Positions 44,528-55,144 of a stretch of 64,000 bases of DNA are shown piece after piece. Both the position numbers and the translations under genes were made by a program. Positions within the stretch are counted from its first letter, which is position 1. Each line of letters starts with the position of its first letter. The notes below the pieces were generated by a model. The model searched no databases and was not told the DNA's origin. It worked only from the letters and a program-made list of their open reading frames with translations. Origin of the DNA: Flagellimonas sp. CMM7 (lineage in GTDB: Bacteria > Bacteroidota > Bacteroidia > Flavobacteriales > Flavobacteriaceae); NCBI RefSeq assembly GCF_021390195.1, contig NZ_CP090003.1, forward strand, positions 1,228,001 through 1,292,000. The letters are read 5' to 3'.

Positions 44528-45265
44528 TTAAATATTCAAATCTGCTCCGATAATGCTTTCCAGAGCCATTATTGAAGAAATAAATTCTGAGCGTTGTAGT
44601 TCAAAATTCATTGTTGCTTGGTTCATCATTTGTTGCAAACGCGTATACTCGGTAACGTTGATCACACCGTTTGCAAAATCTTTTTCTGCCCTTATGGATT
44701 GGATTCTGAAGTTGTCCACAATAGACCCCGAGATAAAAAAGAGTCGATGCGTTTTGAGCAAATCATTATATAGCTCAACAACTTTTTGTTCCAACTCCAT
44801 TTCGGCAACTTCGGTTTCAAATCGAGCTTTTTTAGCTTCACCCTTTGCACTTTTTATTCTTGCACTCCTGTTCACTATTGCAGAAAGAGGTAACCGCAAA
44901 GAAACACCAACATTATACCTACTTTGCTCAGTGGAAAAAAGGGTCTGACTCCCCGGATCTCCTGCAATTTGCTGGTTACTCAGGTTATCAAAAATCCCGT
45001 AGCTATAACCTGCTTCCAAATTGATGTATTCTAACCAGGCCCTTTGTTCCGCAGAAACAACCCCATCTCTATATTGCTGCTCTGAAACAGTAACTTTTAC
45101 AAAGGGAGAATGAACCTTGGCCATATGGACAAGTGTATCTATTGGAGGTAATTTCTTGCTGATGTCATTCTCCTTTAGCCCTTTGTCTATGAACTCATTG
45201 ATAGATTGACCCGCTACTGCCTGTAGTATGAAAAAAACCAATAAAAAGCCCCAAAATTTCTTCAT
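44528..45265 (-). CDS. Short TolC-like outer-membrane protein
   Basis: 245 residues with a signal peptide ending AVAGQS. LVHMAKVHSPFVKVTVSEQQYRDGVVSAEQ resembles the helical start of an OEP repeat. A beta-strand pair INLEAGYSYG...RYNVGVSLRLPL and long helices to the end complete it. This is about half a normal TolC protomer (two repeats, >400 residues), so it carries one OEP repeat. It may form a larger oligomer as the outer-membrane outlet for the polymer; no Wza-type protein is visible. It lies 2 nt upstream of the Wzc-like gene and overlaps the initiating transferase gene by one base. Confidence 0.75.
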   Translation of the reverse strand: MKKFWGFLLVFFILQAVAGQSINEFIDKGLKENDISKKLPPIDTLVHMAKVHSPFVKVTVSEQQYRDGVVSAEQRAWLEYINLEAGYSYGIFDNLSNQQIAGDPGSQTLFSTEQSRYNVGVSLRLPLSAIVNRSARIKSAKGEAKKARFETEVAEMELEQKVVELYNDLLKTHRLFFISGSIVDNFRIQSIRAEKDFANGVINVTEYTRLQQMMNQATMNFELQRSEFISSIMALESIIGADLNI

Positions 45266-46461
45266 TACACGTTCTCTTTTTGAAAAACTGCTCTGAACGT
45301 TCTAAGCACTATCCACATGTCAATCAAAAAAGCATGTTTGCTATTGGCGTATTCTACATATTTTACATCCAAACTTTTGCGTTCTTCCGGAGACATTTTG
45401 GAACTTCTACCCCTGGCCTCTACTTGCCAAAGTCCTGTAATTCCAGCTGGTCCGTTAAACCTATCTGTCCATTCATCTGTAGTCAGCACTTCAGCTTCAT
45501 ACAACGGCAAAGGCCTATTGCCCACAATGGACATATCTCCTTTAAGAACATTGATCAATTGTGGCAATTCGTCAATGCTCAACTTTCTTATAATCTTTCC
45601 AACTTTGGTTATTCTAGGGTCGTTATCAAACTTTACAAAAGCACTCTTAGCACTTTCTTTACGTATGCTGTTATGAAGATTTTCGTCCACTTCATCATCA
45701 TCTCCAAAAAGGACTGTTCCTTGTGGTTTATCAGATGCCTGCTCAATGTTTTCTTCATTGGATTGTTCTACATCCTCATGCACATATTGATTTAAATGCT
45801 GAAACTCCTTTAGACGCTTATCAGCATCTGGATACATGGAGCGTAGTTTGTAGAAGTCAAAAATTTTATATCCTGTTCCTACTCTTTTTGAAATGTAGTA
45901 GACCTTGCCTTTGGATTCTAACCTAATAGCGATAATAAATAATATTAGAAACGGAGAACCCAACAATAATGCAAGTCCGGCTACAGAGATATCAAAAGTT
46001 CGTTTCCAAAAACCAATCTTATACTTTTTGTCCGAATCTTTTGGAGGCCCAATTTTCTCTTTTTTTAAGTTGACTTTAAGTTCTTTTAAAAATTGAACTC
46101 TATCTAAGATATTTGTTATGGAAAGTGGTTGTACATAGAAATCATCTATTCCACTTTTAACAGCCTCGGACAAGTCATTTTTGTTTCTATCCTTAGCCAC
46201 TAAAATGAATGGAATGGAGCTACTGTCAGCGAACTTTTCCTTCAAAGTTTTATGAAACTCTATACCAGATTGTCCTGGAATCTGCTTTTCGCAAAGAATG
46301 GCATCCACATTTTCATTTTCTTCCAACCATTTTATTGCCAAAAGGGAATTCTTCGCAATATGGAAATCTACTTTTTGGTCGCAGTCCAGAAATTGGTCCA
46401 CCACTTTTTGATTTGTTCCCACATAAAGAAGACAAAGTTTCTTATCCGATATTACTTCCAT
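45265..46461 (-). CDS. Initiating sugar transferase fused to a degenerate receiver domain
   Basis: 398 residues. Residues 1-120 have receiver topology. The Asp pair is absent (LLYVGTN), the phospho-acceptor is Glu (E58 in ILCEKQIPG), and the Lys is Gln (Q111 in YVQPLS), so phosphorylation is unlikely. Residues 150-398 form a bacterial sugar transferase: helix FWKRTFDISVAGLALLLGSP, KRVGTGYKIFDFYKLRSM, KLSIDELPQLINVLKGDMSIVGNRP and ITGLWQVEARG. An acidic ~55-residue insertion separates the first two from the rest. Such WcaJ/PglC-type enzymes put the first sugar-phosphate on undecaprenyl phosphate. The fused pseudo-receiver suggests protein-level control. It follows a genuine response regulator by 5 nt. 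Confidence 0.9.
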   Translation of the reverse strand: MEVISDKKLCLLYVGTNQKVVDQFLDCDQKVDFHIAKNSLLAIKWLEENENVDAILCEKQIPGQSGIEFHKTLKEKFADSSSIPFILVAKDRNKNDLSEAVKSGIDDFYVQPLSITNILDRVQFLKELKVNLKKEKIGPPKDSDKKYKIGFWKRTFDISVAGLALLLGSPFLILFIIAIRLESKGKVYYISKRVGTGYKIFDFYKLRSMYPDADKRLKEFQHLNQYVHEDVEQSNEENIEQASDKPQGTVLFGDDDEVDENLHNSIRKESAKSAFVKFDNDPRITKVGKIIRKLSIDELPQLINVLKGDMSIVGNRPLPLYEAEVLTTDEWTDRFNGPAGITGLWQVEARGRSSKMSPEERKSLDVKYVEYANSKHAFLIDMWIVLRTFRAVFQKENV

Positions 46462-46466
46462 AATTC

Positions 46467-46832
46467 TTAAGCCCGTATAAGTAGTTTTTCTACCCTGATT
46501 AACAGTTCTTCCGGATTAAATGGCTTTACCAAATAATCATCTGCACCCAATGTTAAACACTGAATACGATCTGCGCTACTGTCTCTACAACTCAATACAA
46601 TAATTGGAATGTCTGCAAAATATCCGCTTTCTTTTACCTTTTGAATAAGTTCAAAACCATCCATGTTTGGCATTTCCAAATCTGTAATAATCAAATCTGG
46701 AATATTCCCTTCTTGCATCCATGACAATGCGGACAAACCATCTTCTTTTGTGGTTACATTGTACGATTGTCCTAAAAACTGCGATACCAATTCGCTTAGC
46801 GATTGTTTATCATCTACTACTAGAATTTTCAT
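46467..46832 (-). CDS. Stand-alone response regulator (CheY-like)
   Basis: 121 residues with one receiver domain and no output domain. All key residues are visible: D7/D8 (LVVDDKQS), phospho-acceptor D51 (LIITDLEMPNMDG), Ser in VLSCRDSS and Lys in LVKPFNPEE. It probably acts by protein contact, and its first position in the polysaccharide transcript, next to a pseudo-receiver transferase, suggests a target there. The conjugate kinase may be one of those encoded at 49418-54037. A shared 16-bp site lies 45 nt upstream. Confidence 0.93.
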   Translation of the reverse strand: MKILVVDDKQSLSELVSQFLGQSYNVTTKEDGLSALSWMQEGNIPDLIITDLEMPNMDGFELIQKVKESGYFADIPIIVLSCRDSSADRIQCLTLGADDYLVKPFNPEELLIRVEKLLIRA

Positions 46833-46876
46833 TGTTTTTCCTTTTTAAGTTTTGTAGTACTTAACATTATTGAAAA

Positions 46877-46892
46877 GTAGGATAAATATTAC
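46877..46892. promoter_or_regulatory. GTAGGA-N7-TAC site upstream of the polysaccharide transcript
   Basis: The plus strand reads GTAGGATAAATATTAC; the coding (minus) strand continues as TCCTACTTTTC, which contains a -7-like TACTTTT. It is the same 16-mer pattern as before rmlB, the LruC gene and the H-NOX gene. The remaining spacer 46893-47121 shows nothing else recognisable. Confidence 0.4.
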
Positions 46893-47121
46893 CCATTAAT
46901 AATTCTATGTTGTAAAACCTAGGCAGCATGTTGTAAGCAGCTGTTTATTGGTAGTAACATTTTACCAAGCAATAGCCAGTTAGGTTCTAAAAAAAGTTGC
47001 TGTTTTTAAGGCTTTTAAGCACAAAAGCCCATGACCAAATTATATTGGTTAAATGTGAAGTGAGAAATTAAAAAAGAAGAAGTGATTTAGAAAGAAAAAA
47101 ACTGAAGCAGTACTCTTAAAC

Positions 47122-47967
47122 CTATTGTGCAACTTCCTCTGTAATTAATTCTTTATAGGTTTCTTCCATTGATTTTTTAGCAGGCATAAACCTTTCATTG
47201 CAAAATGGAAATGGTTTTGCAGGGTCTCTTTTTGGGGGCAAAGCTGTATACACATCAATGGGTATATATTTGAATTTTCCAACATTATAGAGTTTAATCG
47301 CCAACATGCCATCATCACATCCAGATACAGCTTTTAGATCCGTTTCATAACCAATAGGAAGAATGGAATCTCTGCGGACGGCCATACAAACTGCTCTTAT
47401 GTGTTTAATTTTTGTGGTAAAATCCTGTGACAGCTTCCACCTGAAATAAATGTTTTTTAGTTTGTTCCGAAACTTCATTTTGGAAGAGAGTTGAAAATCA
47501 TCTTCGTAACTTTTTGAAACAGAATAGCAAAGTACAAGGTCTTTGTCCACAAAAAAAGGAAGAGCCATTTTATCTACATAGTATGGATCATATATAGAAT
47601 CTGGATCCATGGTACATATGATTTGCCCCTTCGCCTCTTCTAATCCTCTTTGTCTTGCATAGGTTATTCCTTGCTGTTTTTCACTAACAACTTTGGCCCC
47701 CAATTGTTCAAGAATTGACAAACTTTCATCATCCGCATTATTTTCCACAAAAATGACTTCATAAGGAATAATAGTCTTAAGATTGGCTAAGGAGTATATA
47801 TGTGCAACCAAAGTTTCCTTTGCTCGGTAGATTGGTATAATCAGACTTACCGTTGGCTTTTTAACAGCACCCAACAGTTCAAAATACACAGTCAACTTAG
47901 TAAAGTCATCATCATTCAAGCTTTTTGGTGTTGCTCCAAAGTAAGGTTTATAGGCAGTAACTTTCAT
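47122..47967 (-). CDS. Family 2 glycosyltransferase
   Basis: 281 residues. VSLIIPIYRAKETLVAHIYSL, EVIFVENNADDESL and IICTMDPDSIYDPYYVD mark a GT-A domain with metal-binding Asp. AVSGCDDGMLAIKLYNVG supplies later acidic residues. The first ~35 residues form an extra N-terminal segment containing PYFGATPKSLNDDDFTKL. No membrane helix is present. It sits between the STAS gene (27 nt upstream) and the polysaccharide locus, so it probably belongs to the signalling-linked transcript while acting on the same polymer. Confidence 0.85.
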   Translation of the reverse strand: MKVTAYKPYFGATPKSLNDDDFTKLTVYFELLGAVKKPTVSLIIPIYRAKETLVAHIYSLANLKTIIPYEVIFVENNADDESLSILEQLGAKVVSEKQQGITYARQRGLEEAKGQIICTMDPDSIYDPYYVDKMALPFFVDKDLVLCYSVSKSYEDDFQLSSKMKFRNKLKNIYFRWKLSQDFTTKIKHIRAVCMAVRRDSILPIGYETDLKAVSGCDDGMLAIKLYNVGKFKYIPIDVYTALPPKRDPAKPFPFCNERFMPAKKSMEETYKELITEEVAQ

Positions 47968-47994: not shown

Positions 47995-48297
47995 TCAGAC
48001 ACGGTCAGAACTGAGAATGTAATTGGTTTTGGTAGTATTCATGATTTCTGAAATACTCCTGTTCTGTCTTCCAATTAAAGAGATCACCTTATTTTGTTTT
48101 ACAGATTTTTGATAAAGTTTTTCAAAAAAATGGGCAGCCGCAGAATCTAACATGGTTACTTTTTCTAAGCTAATCACAACGTTTTCATTTCGCTCCAAGA
48201 TGGAATCAAAATATGAATTCAAAGCACCCACATGTTGTATGGATACTTTTCCTAATATTTCAAAAATCCCTCGGTTCTCCCTTATTTCTAATGACAT
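47995..48297 (-). CDS. STAS-domain protein (anti-sigma-factor-antagonist-like)
   Basis: 100 residues, a minimal STAS domain. The strand-helix start ENRGIFEILGKVSIQHVGALNSYF and the phosphoacceptor region SLEKVTMLDSAAAHFF (Asp-Ser) fit the SpoIIAA-like pattern; Ser58-59 is the presumed phosphorylation position. No anti-sigma kinase is seen nearby, so partner and output are unknown. It lies 27 nt upstream of a glycosyltransferase gene and 107 nt downstream of the LytTR regulator gene, so it may be read with either. Confidence 0.8.
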   Translation of the reverse strand: MSLEIRENRGIFEILGKVSIQHVGALNSYFDSILERNENVVISLEKVTMLDSAAAHFFEKLYQKSVKQNKVISLIGRQNRSISEIMNTTKTNYILSSDRV

Positions 48298-48404: not shown

Positions 48405-49115
48405 TTATAAAAGATTCAATCGTTGCATTAACTCTGGCCTGTTAGATCTACTAATTGGAACAACACTTCTTTCTATTAAAACACTATTATCTTGTATGTC
48501 GATTATTTGAGTAAAGTTTATAATAAACGAACGATGAATTTGGAGAAACCTGCACTCTGGCAACTTTTCTTTTATTTTCTTAAGTGTTGAGTGCACTCTG
48601 TACCTTTTATTCTGTGTTTGTATCTCTATATAATCTCCTTTTGCTTCTATTAGCAGGATATCCTTGAACTTTAGTTTTATCAATCTCCTGTCTATATTGA
48701 TATAAAGGTCTTCATCCTCATTCTGGGCTGCACTTATTTCTGTGGATTCATTTGATACTTCACTAAATGTATTTTCAAGTTTGGATGCGCATTTTTGAAA
48801 ACGTTCAGAAGAAATTGGCTTAACCAGATAATCCACTATAAATTCATATTCATAGGCCTCTATGGCAAAATCTTTATCCGATGTGGTCAACACAATTTTT
48901 GGCGGGTTGCTCACTGTTTCTATAAAATCAATCCCGGAAAGCTTGGGCATATGAATATCCAAAAAAATTAAATCTACTTGGGTATGTTTTATAAACTTAA
49001 GCGCTTCCAATGCATTTGGAAACTCTGCCACTAACTCCATATCTGGAATGGTTTTACAAAGTTCTTCCATAATGGCTCTTGCACTTGCCTCATCATCAAC
49101 AATTATACACCTCAT
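48405..49115 (-). CDS. LytTR-family response regulator
   Basis: 236 residues. The receiver domain has acidic pocket VDDE, phospho-acceptor D53 (LIFLDIHMPKLSG) and Lys in YLVKPISSERF. The C-terminal LytTR DNA-binding domain (about 130-236) contains LLIEAKGDYIEIQTQNKRYRVH, LPECRFLQIHRSFIINFTQI and the terminal VVPISRSNRPEL. It is a transcriptional regulator and the only DNA-binding output in the sensing cluster, so it is a candidate regulator of the polysaccharide operons. It follows the Hpt gene by 1 nt. Confidence 0.94.
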   Translation of the reverse strand: MRCIIVDDEASARAIMEELCKTIPDMELVAEFPNALEALKFIKHTQVDLIFLDIHMPKLSGIDFIETVSNPPKIVLTTSDKDFAIEAYEYEFIVDYLVKPISSERFQKCASKLENTFSEVSNESTEISAAQNEDEDLYINIDRRLIKLKFKDILLIEAKGDYIEIQTQNKRYRVHSTLKKIKEKLPECRFLQIHRSFIINFTQIIDIQDNSVLIERSVVPISRSNRPELMQRLNLL

Positions 49116-49116
49116 C

Positions 49117-49440
49117 TTAAGCTATCTTTAAAATAAATTCCTCAACGGATTTTAAAATATCATTAAACTCCTCTTTGAGCTTTATATCACCATACTTTAG
49201 GTCTTCTTCATATTTAACAGCAAGCTTATACCCATTATTAAGTCCAAGAATACCTAGTTTGTGTTTTATCTTATGCACAACCTTTGCTGCTTCTTCAAAG
49301 CTATCACGCTCTAAATTTTCTACATATTCGCTTTTCTCCTTTGGAAATTCCGTCTGGATAATCGTTAAGAATTTCTTTTCAAATTCCTCATTCCCACCTG
49401 AAATTTCCTTTATATAATCAAGATTTGGTTTCTCTGTCAT
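49117..49440 (-). CDS. Histidine phosphotransfer (Hpt) domain protein
   Basis: 107 residues. The helical bundle carries the phosphorylatable His56 in AAKVVHKIKHKLGILGL (H-x-x-K-H), matching the Hpt motif. It should shuttle phosphate between kinases and regulators in the cytoplasm. Its start lies inside the upstream kinase gene (23-nt overlap), and the LytTR regulator gene follows by 1 nt, giving a kinase-Hpt-regulator relay order. Confidence 0.88.
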   Translation of the reverse strand: MTEKPNLDYIKEISGGNEEFEKKFLTIIQTEFPKEKSEYVENLERDSFEEAAKVVHKIKHKLGILGLNNGYKLAVKYEEDLKYGDIKLKEEFNDILKSVEEFILKIA

Positions 49441-50491
49441 TATGGTTATTTTTTATTGTAAAAAAGAAAGTTGTACCCATACCTTCTCCAGAAGAGAGCC
49501 AGATATCGCCTTTATAATAATTTATAATTTTCTTTACCAGCGCAAGGCCTATTCCTGTAGCTTCCGAGTTATTTTCAAGTTTTTTAAACATATCGAAAAT
49601 ACCTGCTTGCAAGTGTTTGGGAATTCCCTTCCCATTATCTGTTACACTAAATAGCCAACCGTCCTTTTCTTCTTTTACGTCTACAATCACTTGTCCATAT
49701 CTTCTATCCTCAGTGGCTGTAATTGCGTTGGTAATAAGATTTTTGAACAGTTGCTCCAAACGGTATTTACCGGTATATATTTTAGGTAATTTTTTGCTCT
49801 TTTTTATCTTGACGTTTTCGGGAACAAATACAGTTTGCCGTATTTCATCTATCAACAAATTAATATCTATCATTATGGCACTTTCTTGAATAGAGTCTAT
49901 TGTTGAATGCCGAAGAATCCCATCAATTAAACCATCCATTTTAGAAAGGTTTTGAAAAATAAGCTGTACGTTTTCCTTGTTTTGTTCTTTAAATCCTTCC
50001 TGTCCATCTTCGAACACCCAACTCACTAAAGAATGCACATTTCTTATTGGCGATTTTAAATCATGGGATACCATATGCGCATAGTTGTTCAATGACTCAT
50101 TCTGCTGTTCCAGGTTTTTCAGGAGCATGTCTTTTTCCGCTGTTATCTCTACAAGTTTATGTGCCTGCTTTTCTATATCCTCAACTAATTTTTGTGGATT
50201 AAAATCCAGTACACCATTTATACGATCACTTGTTTTGTGTTGCATTGAGGCAACGGCCTTACTTAACGCATCCAATACTTTTCGTTGACTTTCTGCTTCT
50301 TTATGCAACCTTTGATTGGCCTGATACAATTCTTCTGAGCTCAAAGACGTGGCCCTCTGAATCATTTTTAACTTTTCATCAAAGTCTGAATATGATCTGC
50401 TAATGGAATTAAAGAACGTCTCTATTTCCGGGTGCTCTATGAACTCCTTAGGAAAAAATTTCTTTATTTGTCTTTTAAGCAGAGAATGCAT
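49418..50491 (-). CDS. Cytoplasmic sensor histidine kinase
   Basis: 357 residues. The N-terminal ~130 residues are helical and coiled-coil, without membrane segments or a recognisable PAS domain. They begin HSLLKRQIKKFFPKEF and resemble kinases that take input from a separate sensor protein. HisKA has H143 in MVSHDLKSPIRNVHSL. HATPase motifs are NLITNAITA, VTDNGKGIP and ATGIGLALVKKI. It abuts the FIST gene with no spacer, which suggests the FIST protein is its sensor. It overlaps the Hpt gene by 23 nt. Confidence 0.92.
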   Translation of the reverse strand: MHSLLKRQIKKFFPKEFIEHPEIETFFNSISRSYSDFDEKLKMIQRATSLSSEELYQANQRLHKEAESQRKVLDALSKAVASMQHKTSDRINGVLDFNPQKLVEDIEKQAHKLVEITAEKDMLLKNLEQQNESLNNYAHMVSHDLKSPIRNVHSLVSWVFEDGQEGFKEQNKENVQLIFQNLSKMDGLIDGILRHSTIDSIQESAIMIDINLLIDEIRQTVFVPENVKIKKSKKLPKIYTGKYRLEQLFKNLITNAITATEDRRYGQVIVDVKEEKDGWLFSVTDNGKGIPKHLQAGIFDMFKKLENNSEATGIGLALVKKIINYYKGDIWLSSGEGMGTTFFFTIKNNHNDRETKS

Positions 50492-51619
50492 TTATTCGCT
50501 CAGTAATGTTAGGGTCATGGTTTGGTTGTGCAATTGGCACTCATTTTTTCCTGCAAATGGCGCCATCTCTCCATAGGAGTAAAATCCTGTGATTTTTGCT
50601 TGGTCCCCTACAATTTCAGCAACTTCTTCAATTTCATCTTCGGTTCTTTGATCGAGCACTAATTTTCTACCCACGCAACTTACCAATATGGCCAATTCTG
50701 GTTTGCTCTTTCTATCTCTCATGGCCAAGACCGCAGCGTTTGAAGCTCCTTCTGCTATATCGTCCACTGTGGACATCATCAATTGTACTTTAGCGTTCAT
50801 TGGCACATCACCGGCCAGAATCATTGAGTTTTCTGCTTCGTCTATATTAAGAATAGTGCGCACCAATGGTTCGGATTCATCATTCTGTTGAACAGTCAAT
50901 GGATACAAAAGGGCTGCTTTTGGTAGCTCATCGGCCTTATCTCCTAAATACATTTTATAAAGATCCAGTGCTGGTTTTCCATCAATCTCAAAAAGTATGT
51001 TTCCTTCAGATTTGGTAATAGTTCTCTCAGGACCAAATGGTGTCCATCCTCCAAAATTTGCATAAGAGACTTCAAAGTCTCCGCCATAAAAACCGATGGC
51101 CACTACTTCACCTTGCTTTGGGTTTTCATTGTAAGAAGTCAATGTTTTTTCAAACCGAGCTCCATCACCACATAATCCTCCAGTAATGGAGGCATTAAAC
51201 CCTTCTACAGATTCCAAACCTTCAATTAAATCGCTTCCATTTACAAAACTTCCATCGGAAACAATAAACATGTGCTTAAGCTGATTTTGGTCAAATTTAT
51301 TTGAAATAGCCAAACCCAATTTCTCAATATTCTCATGGTTTGACACGTTTTCACTTACTATATTAAAGCGAGTTTTTTCAAACTCTATAGCTGTTAATGT
51401 TATGCTTTCTTCATACACATTGGTTTCCATAATCTCTCCGGAAGTAGACCCAAAAACAAGATGTCCTTTGGGGTAGAGTTCCTTTACTTCATTGAACAAA
51501 TCTTTGGATTCCAATAAATATCTATCTCCAAATATTAAAACCAATGGCTCTTTTAAGGGTTGGTTTTCACTAAACTCCCATGACCCTCCTTTTAATCTTT
51601 TTGCTTGATTTATTTTCAT
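50492..51619 (-). CDS. FIST-domain sensor protein (NosP family candidate)
   Basis: 375 residues. The FIST_N part (about 25-215) includes LVLIFGDRYLLESKDLFNEV, GHLVFGSTSGEIM and GGLCGDGARFEKT. FIST_C (about 220-365) has LDLYKMYLGDKADELPKAALLYPL and the end GFYSYGEMAPFAGKNECQLHNQTMTL, the family hallmark. FIST proteins are small-ligand sensors; some (NosP) bind haem and sense nitric oxide through a co-encoded kinase. Here the gene is flanked by kinase genes at 0 and 12 nt and lies near an H-NOX gene. Haem binding is not shown by sequence alone. Confidence 0.88.
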   Translation of the reverse strand: MKINQAKRLKGGSWEFSENQPLKEPLVLIFGDRYLLESKDLFNEVKELYPKGHLVFGSTSGEIMETNVYEESITLTAIEFEKTRFNIVSENVSNHENIEKLGLAISNKFDQNQLKHMFIVSDGSFVNGSDLIEGLESVEGFNASITGGLCGDGARFEKTLTSYNENPKQGEVVAIGFYGGDFEVSYANFGGWTPFGPERTITKSEGNILFEIDGKPALDLYKMYLGDKADELPKAALLYPLTVQQNDESEPLVRTILNIDEAENSMILAGDVPMNAKVQLMMSTVDDIAEGASNAAVLAMRDRKSKPELAILVSCVGRKLVLDQRTEDEIEEVAEIVGDQAKITGFYSYGEMAPFAGKNECQLHNQTMTLTLLSE

Positions 51620-51631
51620 TGCTTTTTGTTT

Positions 51632-53998
51632 TTATACATCTTTTTTAAGTGAAAAATAAAATGTAGTTCCTACTCCTATTTCACTTTCTAACCAGACTTT
51701 CCCCTCATACCTATCAATAATTTTTTTAACTATTGAAAGTCCAATTCCTGTAGAGCGTTCATTGCTCCCTATAGATTGGAAAATCTGGAAGATTTTTTCA
51801 TGATATTCTTTTGGTATTCCTACTCCATTATCTTTTACGCTAAATTCCCAATGTGCGGAGCGCTCTTTGTAATCTATCTCTACCAACCCGTCCGGTTTAT
51901 CAATATTTACAACCGCATTGCTCAAAAAGTTTTGGAACAACTGGTGTATCTTGGTTTTATCAGCTTTGATTAACGGTAGCTTCTTTTTGGTTTTTATGAT
52001 GACATTTTCTGGGATATAAATGATTTCTTTAATCTCATGAATCACCTCATTTACGTCAACTTCCGTGTGATCCAAAACATCATTGTTAACGGTGGAATAT
52101 TTTAGAATTCCACTAATTAGTTTGTCCATTCCCTCAATTTTCTCCTGCATCATCTTTAAATTATAAAGGCCATTTTCATCCAAAGAATCTTTATAATCAT
52201 CATAAAGCCATGTAGCCAAAGCACTTACACTTCTTAAAGGCGACTTTAAATCATGTGAAACTATATGGGCATATTCCTGTAATCCTTTGTTACTTGTTTC
52301 GAGTTCCTGTAAAAGGTTTTCTTTTTGAAGTTCAAGGTGTTTCTGGGAAGTAATATCCAGATGAATTCCTATAGATCCAATCACATTTCCTGCATCATCA
52401 AATCTTGGAGCACCACTGACCAACCAAAACCGCTTTTCTCCGTTGGCAATTTTTACAGCCACCTCATAAGAATCCGAAATTCCTTCTTCTTCTTTCTGGT
52501 TTTGTTGCTTCAGATCATCTGTTTCATCACTAATAATAGGAATAGCTTCATAGACATTTTTTCCAATTAATTCATTGGCAGAATACCCTACCATATCACT
52601 AAAACTCTGATTGATCATTAAAATATTGCCATCGCTACCCACCTCAACAAGACCAAGATTCATATTTGCAATAATGCTCCCGTACTTTTCCTTTTGAATC
52701 TCCAAATTCTTTCGGTAGTTCTTCCGTAAAGTCACATCATTATAGCTCCATAAATGACCTTGATACTCTCCATTGCTGAACAAAGGAATATAGTCTCGCT
52801 CAAATGTTCTACCATCCAAGAGTTCCATTTCATCTGCCGTAACCACTTCTCTTTGACCAATAACATCATCTATTCTTCTTAGAGCCGAATCTGGTTCTAA
52901 GAACATGTCTTTGTATTTGTGGGTGGATTGTTCGCTATTTATTCCTTTAAGTACATCTGGGGAAACGGCAATTCCAAAAAGGTCGCAAAATTTTTGATTG
53001 GCCAAGACAATTTTCCTTTCCTGATCTTCCAATAGAATACCTGTCTGAAGGTTTTTTATCAAGGTTGTCATCCGTTCTTCCGATGCTCTAAGTTTTTCAT
53101 CAGAAATTTTTTCCTGTGTAATGTCCTCTATCATTGCAACATTATACTCAACATCTCCTTTTCCATCTAACAGAGAACTCATAGATGTTTTTCCATATAA
53201 GGTGTCACCGTTCTTTTTGCGGAATTTGCGAATTATAGAGAATTTCTTGGTGTCGTTTTCTAAGCTCTTTTGCAAAAGATCATCATACAAATTGCTGTCC
53301 TCTAAAGAAGAAATCTCATCCAATGATAATTTTTTAAGTTCAACTTCAGAATACCCCAACAGTTCAATAAAGGACTTATTTGCCTTTATTATTTTATTCT
53401 TCACAATCAATAAAATTCCCAAAGAGGAATTTTCCACAATAATATCTTGCTGCCTTTTTTGTTTCTCTAAAAGTTGTTTTATCTCAATCTCTTGGGTGAT
53501 GTCCCTTATCACTCCTTGTGCGGCTATAGGGCTTCCACTTTCATTATAAATGAGACTTGCATTTATGTTTACATATTTTTCTTCCTGATTTTTTGTGATA
53601 ATCTTTGCTGAATAATTTTTAAGAACACCCACTTGCAACAAGGTCTGAAACGATTCTGCCGTGTATTCTAAATAGTCTTGATGTACTATGTCTGAAAGAC
53701 AGATTTTTTCTTTTGTATGATCATATCCCAAAAACTCCTTGGCAGAGGTATTCATATTGATCACGTTAGACATTAAATCCATGACCACATAAGGATCAAT
53801 AATGTTAACGAAAGCATTATCTATGGCAGTTCCACCGTCATTCAATAAGGTTTCTAGGCGGCCATTTGCTTCTCTAAGGTGCAAAGAAGCATCATAGAGC
53901 TCCTTTGCTTTATTTTCCAGCAAACTCTCAGCAGTCTTACGGGCCTTTTTCTCCCGTAACAAAGCTCTTTTTAAAATGGAAACTTCATTGTTATCCAT
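51632..53998 (-). CDS. Multi-PAS sensor histidine kinase
   Basis: About 788 residues from the ATG at 53998, which overlaps the H-NOX stop by 8 nt; an upstream ATG at 54037 would overlap by 47. A short N-terminal coiled-coil precedes four PAS-type domains (roughly 60-180, 185-305, 310-425, 430-555; for example INMNTSAKEFLGYD, KIIKANKSFIELLGYSEVELKK, MINQSFSDMVGYSANELIGKN). The kinase core has IVSHDLKSPLRSVSAL, NFLSNAVVN, VKDNGVGIP and STGIGLSIVKKI. No membrane helix is present. Coupling to H-NOX suggests it is the H-NOX-regulated kinase, with additional PAS inputs. Confidence 0.93.
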   Translation of the reverse strand: MDNNEVSILKRALLREKKARKTAESLLENKAKELYDASLHLREANGRLETLLNDGGTAIDNAFVNIIDPYVVMDLMSNVINMNTSAKEFLGYDHTKEKICLSDIVHQDYLEYTAESFQTLLQVGVLKNYSAKIITKNQEEKYVNINASLIYNESGSPIAAQGVIRDITQEIEIKQLLEKQKRQQDIIVENSSLGILLIVKNKIIKANKSFIELLGYSEVELKKLSLDEISSLEDSNLYDDLLQKSLENDTKKFSIIRKFRKKNGDTLYGKTSMSSLLDGKGDVEYNVAMIEDITQEKISDEKLRASEERMTTLIKNLQTGILLEDQERKIVLANQKFCDLFGIAVSPDVLKGINSEQSTHKYKDMFLEPDSALRRIDDVIGQREVVTADEMELLDGRTFERDYIPLFSNGEYQGHLWSYNDVTLRKNYRKNLEIQKEKYGSIIANMNLGLVEVGSDGNILMINQSFSDMVGYSANELIGKNVYEAIPIISDETDDLKQQNQKEEEGISDSYEVAVKIANGEKRFWLVSGAPRFDDAGNVIGSIGIHLDITSQKHLELQKENLLQELETSNKGLQEYAHIVSHDLKSPLRSVSALATWLYDDYKDSLDENGLYNLKMMQEKIEGMDKLISGILKYSTVNNDVLDHTEVDVNEVIHEIKEIIYIPENVIIKTKKKLPLIKADKTKIHQLFQNFLSNAVVNIDKPDGLVEIDYKERSAHWEFSVKDNGVGIPKEYHEKIFQIFQSIGSNERSTGIGLSIVKKIIDRYEGKVWLESEIGVGTTFYFSLKKDV

Positions 53999-54533
53999 TT
54001 TGGAAGATCGCAAACCTGACTTCTGTTCCGTTTTCATTTAATAGTTTATAATCTACTTTTACTGTTTTCTTAAAGTGTTCAAATGTTTTTACAATTAACC
54101 CATGCGCCAAAGCATAGAGCCCTCTTGAAGAACTGTAAATCATTTCAAGTGAATTCTCTGTTTTTGAAAGTATTTTAAATTGAGGGAGTTCCGCATCAGG
54201 GTAGAGTTTCTTTACATGTACGTGAATATGATCTTCAATACAGTGAAGAAGTCCAATGGGGGTTCTGTAACTAGAAACCACTTCTGGATGGGCTTCTACA
54301 AGTCCCACAAATAGATGATGCCCAAAAGAATACAATAAATCCTCATGGGAAATATCCTTTTTCTTACTGAGTTCGGAAATCAAACTCACCATCTCATTAA
54401 AGTCATAAGTACCTACGGACGTATATGCGCCTCCAGAAGGAAGGTCACAGTTTTCCAACAGCGAATCAACGGTCTCTAGTCCATAAATAGACTCGACCAT
54501 TTCCATAAACTCAGTAAAAACAATTCCTTTCAT
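53991..54533 (-). CDS. H-NOX haem nitric-oxide-sensing protein
   Basis: 180 residues, the length of stand-alone bacterial H-NOX proteins. The proximal haem ligand is H102 in EDHIHVHVKKLYPDAELP, in the family's H-x-x-V...LYPDA-x-LP context. The haem-propionate-binding Y-x-S-x-R is Y133-S-S135-S-R137. The distal Tyr found in O2-binding members (five residues after that Arg) is Leu142 here, so selective NO binding is inferred. It heads a transcript with the multi-PAS kinase (8-nt overlap), FIST, second kinase, Hpt and LytTR genes. A GTAGGA-N7-TAC site lies 24 nt upstream. Confidence 0.95.
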   Translation of the reverse strand: MKGIVFTEFMEMVESIYGLETVDSLLENCDLPSGGAYTSVGTYDFNEMVSLISELSKKKDISHEDLLYSFGHHLFVGLVEAHPEVVSSYRTPIGLLHCIEDHIHVHVKKLYPDAELPQFKILSKTENSLEMIYSSSRGLYALAHGLIVKTFEHFKKTVKVDYKLLNENGTEVRFAIFQNG

Positions 54534-54557
54534 AATAAAGAATATTATGATTTAAAA

Positions 54558-54573
54558 GTAGGAATTGTACTAC
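54558..54573. promoter_or_regulatory. GTAGGA-N7-TAC site upstream of the H-NOX gene
   Basis: The plus strand reads GTAGGAATTGTACTAC, a near-palindrome (AAGTAG...CTACTT). On the coding strand it ends TCCTACTTTTA, matching the sequence before the 46832 gene and offering a -7-like TACTTTTA. Confidence 0.4.
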
Positions 54574-54611
54574 TTATTTAAAAAAAGAATGTTGTGAAAT
54601 AGAGAATTTTG

Positions 54612-55010
54612 TTAGGCTTTGACCAGCTCGCTAACCTCCCAGTAGTCAAAAACTTTTTTCAGCTTAGACTCGTAATCCTCATATTTTAAAGGCTTTATAA
54701 TATATCCTGCTATTCCAATCTCAAAGCATTTTAATAAATCAACGCGATTTTCCGATGTGGTCAAAATAATGGTAGGCAAATACTTAAGTCTATCATCCGC
54801 CTTTAAAATGGAAAGAAATTCAATGCCGCTCATTCGTGGCATATTAAGATCTAGAAGGATAATATCCGGCAAGTTTCCTCCTTTCAAGAATTCCATAGCT
54901 TCTTCTCCATTTTTAGCTTCGGTAATCTTGTGTTTGGACTGAAACTTAGAAATAGCTCGTTGCAATTTCATAGTTTCTATCATATCATCTTCTATGAACA
55001 GAACATTCAT
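54612..55010 (-). CDS. Stand-alone response regulator (Rcp1/CheY-like)
   Basis: 132 residues with one receiver domain. Key residues are E7/D8/D9 (FIEDDMIE), phospho-acceptor D54 (IILLDLNMPRMSG), Thr in ILTTSEN and Lys in YIIKPLKYED. The helix after the first strand is long, as in phytochrome-type Rcp1 regulators. It lies 78 nt upstream of the H-NOX gene on the same strand and is a candidate phosphate acceptor for the nearby kinases. No output domain is present. Confidence 0.92.
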   Translation of the reverse strand: MNVLFIEDDMIETMKLQRAISKFQSKHKITEAKNGEEAMEFLKGGNLPDIILLDLNMPRMSGIEFLSILKADDRLKYLPTIILTTSENRVDLLKCFEIGIAGYIIKPLKYEDYESKLKKVFDYWEVSELVKA

Positions 55011-55144
55011 GACACTTTGGATTTAGTATACAAAAGTCTTAAAACACTTTAAGAAAAGGATTACAATTTAGTTAAATGAGAATAAACTATCGACGAATGG
55101 TAGAAATATTTCGGCTAAATATCAATAATTTTAATAGGTTGACC

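Follow-up and report, generated by a model that had tools for sequence, protein, structure and literature searches.

A conserved H-NOX/FIST gene unit of Flavobacteriaceae with the predicted layout of an autoregulated two-input phosphorelay

A seven-gene unit with two sensor families is conserved in Flavobacteriaceae

The window analysed here comprises 64,000 nt of the Flagellimonas sp. CMM7 genome (coordinates are positions within it, gene starts were set mechanically) and carries a unit of seven co-oriented genes on the minus strand. In the order of transcription these encode a stand-alone receiver (REC1), an H-NOX sensor, a histidine kinase (HK1), a FIST domain protein, a second histidine kinase (HK2), an Hpt protein and a REC-LytTR response regulator, followed by genes for a STAS protein, a glycosyltransferase of family 2 (GT2), a second receiver and a receiver-sugar transferase (Table 1). 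The unit probably represents an autoregulated two-input phosphorelay split over the seven genes. What speaks for this at the sequence level is the gene order and its conservation, conserved phosphorylation stations, the mixed make-up of HK2 and a predicted operator. The co-oriented run from H-NOX to LytTR had been proposed in a sequence-only reading made without database searches. It was confirmed at its place with agreeing Pfam names, and the observation is real and stronger than first claimed. Spacing within the unit is tight: gaps of 78 bp between REC1 and H-NOX, 12 bp between HK1 and FIST, 0 bp between FIST and HK2 and 1 bp between Hpt and LytTR, and overlaps of 47 bp (H-NOX/HK1) and 23 bp (HK2/Hpt).

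We surveyed 299 Flavobacteriaceae genomes as well as 395 genomes spread over the phylum. In the family, H-NOX was found in 105/299 and FIST in 87/299 genomes. All 108 H-NOX loci of the family were labelled with purpose-built profiles replacing earlier phmmer labels; this number excludes G076:C2, an H-NOX row that did not reach the cut-off of the family. A FIST gene lies on the same strand within 20 kb of 58 of the 108 H-NOX matches, 57 times downstream at 1.3-2.7 kb. Conservation of the gene order in other Flavobacteriaceae, on which the sequence-only reading had made its proposal depend, is evident, as all seven genes follow each other as REC-HNOX-HK-FIST-HK2-Hpt-LytTR in 51/108 loci. Chance adjacency of H-NOX and FIST was dropped as an explanation in view of these numbers (57/108 for the placement, 51/108 for the whole order). 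Another 37/108 loci read REC-HNOX-HK-Hpt-LytTR, without FIST and HK2. The CheY-like regulator noted earlier just upstream is present but not a separate element: a receiver gene lies directly 5' of H-NOX in 103/108 loci and thus belongs to the unit, so that its interpretation as a bystander was abandoned. In the phylum survey H-NOX occurs in 27/395 and FIST in 89/395 genomes. Twelve of the H-NOX genomes are outside the family, one of which (L140) possesses the complete dual unit.

The stations of a phosphorelay, namely kinase, receiver Asp, Hpt His and second receiver Asp, are all present and conserved. Among 113 loci, D54 and K106 of REC1 are kept in 108/108, H56 of Hpt in 101/101 and D53 of the LytTR regulator in 96/96 loci with the respective gene in place.

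Table 1. Features of the unit and its surroundings in the Flagellimonas sp. CMM7 window.
Feature	Position	Strand	Basis
Predicted LytTR operator, two direct boxes 21 bp apart: CCATTCGTC and weaker TCATTTAAC	55066..55100	-	profile, 30.2 bits
Stand-alone receiver REC1	54612..55010	-	Response_reg 76.5 bits (Pfam)
H-NOX sensor, 180 aa	53991..54533	-	HNOB 130.5 bits, residues 2-160 (Pfam)
Kinase HK1, PAS repeats and HisKA/HATPase, without receiver	51632..54037	-	HisKA 28.0 bits, HATPase_c
FIST/FIST_C protein, 375 aa	50492..51619	-	FIST 152.5 bits, FIST_C 121.3 bits
Kinase HK2, without receiver	49418..50491	-	HATPase_c; HisKA 26.8 bits vs cut-off 26.9
Hpt protein	49117..49440	-	Hpt 20.8 bits vs cut-off 24.6
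REC-LytTR response regulator	48405..49115	-	LytTR 72.6 bits, Response_reg 67.8 bits
STAS protein, 107 bp past the LytTR gene (context only)	47995..48297	-	STAS 36.2 bits
Polysaccharide genes: GT2, second receiver, receiver-sugar transferase (context only)	45265..47967	-	Pfam

FIST and HK2 behave as a cassette and HK2 looks chimeric

Since 37/108 loci keep the same order without them, FIST and HK2 behave as a plug-in cassette. On the H-NOX tree (126 rows) FIST presence needs 24 changes (shuffled mean 42.4), at least 5 of which are forced by starred branches. Hence gain or loss of the cassette took place repeatedly, and this tree does not tell the two apart. The cassette FISTs form one group with a support of 100, which includes those of L173 and L174; the divergent L036 and L067 are placed outside.

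For comparison, FIST genes not linked to H-NOX were considered. Of these 59 matches (117 less 58), 21 in 20 regions were fetched, which are among the higher-scoring ones; the remaining 38, mostly lower-scoring arrays, were left out. As no FIST was labelled in L163 and the L166 region stops at its FIST gene, 19 kinases from 18 regions were compared. A profile of the HK2 N-terminus, built from the HK2 sequences themselves, matches 62/62 HK2 and 16/16 stand-alone FIST hybrid kinases. It matches 0/120 H-NOX-adjacent kinases (0/63 dual-locus HK1, 0/52 single-locus HK1, 0/5 hybrids) and 0/9 others. A receiver domain is found in 0/62 cassette kinases vs 16/19 stand-alone FIST kinases, these hybrids being 573-596 aa long. 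The H-NOX-adjacent kinases of the relatives mostly have no receiver either (115/120 without, 5/120 with).

The core of HK2 points to the other side. Within its own genome the best other match of HK2 is HK1 (206.9 bits, 43% identity), the next of the 17 others reaching 67.5 bits. A kinase tree of 119 rows, subsampled to 24/63 dual-locus HK1, 24/62 HK2 and 19/52 single-locus HK1, unites 24/24 dual-locus HK1, 24/24 HK2 and 17/19 single-locus HK1 in one group with a support of 95. All FIST hybrids (16/16) and all other kinases of the own genome (17/17) fall outside, and inside this group HK2 is nearly one group of its own (98). Partner choice of histidine kinases is set by residues just after the phospho-His. 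At +7 an Arg is found in 63/63 dual-locus HK1, 46/50 single-locus HK1, 59/62 HK2 and 0/16 FIST hybrids, and a Trp at +15 in 63/63, 47/50, 60/62 and 0/16, respectively. HK2 looks like a chimera of a FIST-associated N-terminal segment and a core of the H-NOX-kinase type. On balance we favour a cassette that arose by grafting a docking segment onto a duplicated, receiver-less H-NOX kinase core, such that a second haem-type sensor would write to the same receiver-Hpt-LytTR line. It would then be an evolved two-input gate that was repeatedly added or lost and, if so, a ready natural experiment in wiring sensors into existing relays.

A predicted LytTR operator precedes the unit

LytTR sites consist of two boxes about 21 bp apart. 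A k-mer search of the upstream regions of the receiver genes before H-NOX (113 H-NOX loci) yielded CATTCGTC in 59/113 of them vs 0.4 in shuffles. Two such boxes 21 bp apart, CCATTCGtCGACACTtaa..gCcATTCGtCtACac, make up a 35-bp operator profile that exceeds 11.3 bits in 102/113 receiver upstreams, 101 of them in the same orientation and with a median distance of 73 bp to the gene. The best of 339 shuffles reaches 11.3 bits and the best of 178 upstreams from stand-alone FIST loci 4.8 bits. In the window, the only other match above 9 bits (14.3) overlaps the site at 55066-55100. The unit combines a LytTR domain with a predicted two-box operator, spaced by ~21 bp, in front of the operon; the LytTR protein is likely to bind this predicted site, which would render the operon autoregulated.

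The profile also holds for upstream regions it was not trained on. A gene for a secreted DUF6923 protein is located no more than two genes from LytTR in 37/96 loci, and 37/39 upstreams of this gene pass. The protein (e.g. L037:9342-11930) is sorted by the type IX secretion system and has the operator before its gene; a search without positive control did not find it in the own genome. In total, 1.67 Mb of H-NOX loci contain 253 sites above 13 bits; the stand-alone FIST loci (239 kb) contain none and shuffled DNA a single one. The next gene is REC1 for 102 of the sites, the secreted protein for 37, STAS for 8, a glycosyltransferase for 8, a flippase for 6, UDP-glucose dehydrogenase for 4 and another receiver for 3; 47 next genes are unclassified, 28 lie more than 350 bp away and 10 sites have none. 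Throughout the 299 genomes a strict pattern (at most one mismatch) occurs in 78/105 genomes with H-NOX and 37/194 without. Against a control with the reversed pattern this corresponds to 126 vs 27 matches with H-NOX and 41 vs 28 without. Allowing two mismatches, three places match in the own genome (control 5), of which only the site of the relay is exact; the other two score -3.3 bits on the profile. Within the window, three mismatches give 1 match vs 1.31 expected by chance, that is no excess.

The sensors

The proximal haem His and the YxSxR motif are the defining residues of the H-NOX family. Both are found in the window protein, and its HNOB domain extends over the full length. The sequence-only reading gave them as H102 and YxSxR. 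The motif is present as YSSSR at 133-137 (alignment to relatives and to 6bde/6bdd), and so is the axial His, which however is H104 in this protein; 102 we take to be the numbering of another H-NOX. H104 is kept in 106/108, S135 in 107/108 and R137 in 101/108 loci. A sequence search of the PDB relates the protein to the solved chains 6bde and 6bdd (185 and 182.3 bits). As 6BDD, the solved H-NOX of Kordia algicida (PMC7356049), is a near relative, this class of proteins is amenable to laboratory work. By analogy we lean towards NO (nitric oxide)-bound H-NOX lowering the activity of HK1, as reported for HnoK.

The FIST protein had been labelled NosP-type, which is not borne out. It does have the two domains FIST and FIST_C, but scores 50.1 bits on the curated NCBIfam model of NosP with a cut-off of 450; we therefore dropped NosP proper. 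On the same model, 38-98 bits are reached by four FIST proteins from relatives. The window protein is thus best described as a FIST family member that would act as second sensor with putative haem or NO binding. The near-invariant residues of 64 cassette FISTs, H364 (61/64), C361 (61/64) and C315 (63/64), are likewise found in stand-alone FISTs (19/20, 16/20 and 19/20), so this conservation does not separate cassette from other FISTs and is uninformative on haem. No His is specific to the cassette FIST; H53 is retained in merely 42/64. The haem ligand of NosP was sought, but not found, in the parts of the NosP literature at hand. A search of the PDB for a solved FIST relative gave one match with an E-value of 0.31, which was rejected.

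A tenable, though tentative, alternative is a relay that converges as proposed while FIST senses something other than NO, such as haem itself, the redox state or a small metabolite; NO and a second signal would then be combined. The low NosP scores of all five FIST proteins (38-98 bits, cut-off 450) and the lack of a cassette-specific His (H364 is common to stand-alone FISTs) are in line with this, as is CdpA of V. cholerae, a FIST-FIST_C protein described as haem-responsive (PMC8846402). On the other hand, FIST-plus-kinase pairs have been described as NO sensors (PMC12570481).

Among the best 120 of 7458 matches, the named near relatives of the FIST protein (Flagellimonas/Allomuricauda) show 87-93% identity. 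Two of them (P0003, P0009) bear the public name histidine kinase, apparently a mis-annotation carried over from the neighbouring gene. Some genomes (G037, G069, G101, G225, G261 and others) possess FIST genes of a second kind with lower scores, arranged in tandem as arrays of 2-4; by eye, these genomes mostly have no H-NOX match.

The proposed relay and alternative readings

In the proposed relay H-NOX would control HK1, and the FIST protein would control HK2 via the N-terminal segment of the latter. Both kinases would phosphorylate the shared stand-alone receiver as first Asp station, from where the phosphate would be passed to Hpt (second His station) and on to the LytTR regulator. This regulator would bind two CCATTCGTC-like boxes before its own operon and, in relatives, also before the gene of the secreted protein or polysaccharide genes. 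An H-NOX-type core together with the absence of an own receiver would have allowed HK2 to join the relay. Sensing of NO or haem, docking between sensors and kinases, the route of phosphotransfer, LytTR binding and the sign of the response are what we infer.

A converging dual-sensor relay had already been suggested by the sequence-only reading. Comparison of the loci now supports this proposed relay well. Convergence is likely because the FIST-HK2 pair occupies a single junction of a relay also found without the pair, because cassette kinases are devoid of a receiver whereas stand-alone FIST kinases are mostly hybrids, and because HK2 seems chimeric with core and contact residues like those of HK1. 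Moreover relay parts are fused elsewhere (L145, L141, L142, L032), L138 retains HK2 without FIST, and L154 adds a GAF kinase before Hpt. The genome of the window itself has three Hpt matches at E-values up to 0.5, one of them above the cut-off. At L145, outside the family, H-NOX is followed by PAS-HK-REC-Hpt as one protein, whose Hpt domain (32.7 bits) is above the cut-off, and then by LytTR with a 4-bp overlap. L141 and L142, likewise from other families, have HK-REC-Hpt fusions.

Two layouts within or near this scheme are worth recording on their own. L032:5967-12698, within the family, is a second dual-sensor layout in which a sigma-54 regulator, FIST and H-NOX are combined with only one kinase of the HK-REC-Hpt type; this kinase has HNOBA matches and an Hpt match of 21.7 bits, below the cut-off. 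The GAF-domain kinase at L154:3712-5070 is of the same core type, lies between HK2 and Hpt and is a possible third input.

Several points weigh against convergence, the cassette or the operator. The Hpt protein of the window does not reach the Pfam cut-off (20.8 vs 24.6 bits). The order deviates in 20/108 loci, at least three of which (L130, L131, L139) are cut by contig ends, and neither Hpt nor LytTR is labelled at L040, L053, L128, L129, L134 and L137. Cassette-type FIST plus kinase is also found remote from H-NOX in two genomes (L173, L174). Common descent alone could explain the core and contact residues shared by HK1 and HK2, and the kinase tree places four single-locus HK1 (L096, L099, L120, L159) among or next to HK2. 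All trees were built by a quick procedure, and long branches in them are flagged. Fused kinases from other families cluster with the FIST hybrids and not with HK1, so that the parallel drawn from the fusions is one of layout, not of orthology. As to the operator, the core 8-mer CATTCGTC is also present in 11/125 control upstreams of the same loci, the 102/113 receiver upstreams are those the profile was trained on with relatives that are not independent, and the own genome shows no operator target except the relay operon itself.

Thr or Asn at +4 from the phospho-His goes with phosphatase activity. Here a Ser occupies this position in 63/63 dual-locus HK1 and 56/62 HK2, which does not favour such an activity. 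We regard it as unlikely that FIST-HK2 is mainly a brake, with HK2 draining phosphate off the shared receiver and opposing the H-NOX input, even if the signs reported for known NosP and H-NOX pathways include opposite ones (PMC8846402, PMC12570481). Two parallel lines, HK1 acting on the lone receiver as a CheY-like output (e.g. for gliding) and HK2 on Hpt and LytTR, are quite improbable: the known part of a pathway may end with a lone receiver, as in Legionella hnox2 (PMC11237717), but 37/108 loci retain receiver, HK1, Hpt and LytTR without HK2, at L145 a single protein ahead of LytTR unites kinase, receiver and Hpt, and HK1 and HK2 share core and contact residues.

Relation to known systems

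No description of the seven-gene H-NOX/FIST unit was found in a literature search that did not cover most subscription journals. In the four-step relay of the Spo0F/Spo0B type several kinases act on one lone receiver, one phosphotransferase and one DNA-binding regulator. The proposed relay would resemble it in this succession, but has LytTR in place of Spo0A, an Hpt protein, soluble sensors and the relay genes in one operon. For Shewanella, NosP and the H-NOX network are reportedly the subject of one paper.

In the sources at hand, H-NOX and FIST/NosP pathways are mostly proteobacterial and mostly end in cyclic di-GMP or quorum sensing. The H-NOX/HnoK/HnoB-HnoD-HnoC network of Shewanella and Vibrio likewise comprises an H-NOX-adjacent kinase and a phosphorelay, and Shewanella HnoC is a transcription regulator feeding back on the hno regulon (PMC8738867). 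Its outputs, however, include cyclic di-GMP enzymes, none of which are part of the window unit, and the latter has separate receiver and Hpt genes, a LytTR output and a FIST sensor alongside. FIST genes near hnox have already been reported for group 1 of an H-NOX network, in a section (section 10) that contains no such relay, cassette, mixed kinase or operator (PMC8738867).

As in NosP/NahK (NosK), the FIST gene lies beside a kinase without known sensor domain and with an N-terminal part before DHp (PMC12570481). Unlike there, the window FIST is far below the NosP model and HK2 has a core of the H-NOX-kinase type and no receiver, the NahK models being named hybrid kinase/response regulator. 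In Vibrio the NO-regulated kinases HqsK and VpsS, the latter with NosP, act via one Hpt protein, LuxU, which they share with other inputs (PMC6769237). These are hybrid kinases shared with quorum sensing, whereas the window unites two sensor families and a whole relay in one gene unit ending in LytTR. The Legionella hnox2 operon comprises a kinase gene and one for a CheY-like receiver, the signal downstream of which is given as not known, and the three NO sensors of this organism are distributed over three operons (PMC11237717). Pseudomonas AlgR, also of the LytTR type, has a box CCGTTCGTC one base off CCATTCGTC (PMC4064291); the window differs in having a relay operon preceded by two predicted boxes with a spacing of 21 bp.

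In Flavobacteriaceae both sensor families are part of the same conserved unit, and the route predicted for it is complete from the sensor down to the DNA site. Because many relatives share the unit, signal integration becomes directly testable. The relatives also provide matched natural variants (with or without the cassette, a kinase without its sensor, a third kinase, a fused relay); the combining of sensors and the partner choice of kinases can therefore be asked directly.

Polysaccharide neighbourhood

The link to biofilm or polysaccharide formation made by the sequence-only reading gains support in relatives. There the predicted operator stands before genes for flippases, glycosyltransferases, UDP-glucose dehydrogenase and STAS proteins, but in the own genome it was found only before the relay. 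No operator was seen in six stretches upstream of STAS, GT2, the second receiver and Wzc (best scores -12.9 to -23.0 bits, P 0.18-0.74 vs shuffles), and the adjacent polysaccharide locus was dropped as a direct LytTR target in the own genome. Around the 108 relay loci flippase-like genes were labelled 23 times, glycosyltransferases of group 1 18 times and UDP-glucose dehydrogenase 6 times, the labels being derived from single-reference phmmer searches and Pfam of examples (loci of the type L108-L125, e.g. L122:7460-12446).

Gaps of 107 bp (LytTR-STAS) and 27 bp (STAS-GT2) separate the relay from the following genes. A terminator scan lists no terminator-like site in the LytTR-STAS gap within its loop limit, and read-through from the relay into STAS and GT2 is possible. 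By eye, a 5-pair stem with a 9-base loop, just beyond this limit, followed by TTTTT is seen at 48367-48344; this short structure could terminate the relay transcript. Further downstream, the gene at 45265-46461 encodes a fusion of receiver and sugar-phosphate transferase (Pfam: Bac_transf 176.3 bits, Response_reg 41.8 bits). It may contain a pseudo-receiver, since the phospho-acceptor Asp is replaced by Glu (LCEKQIP, by eye).

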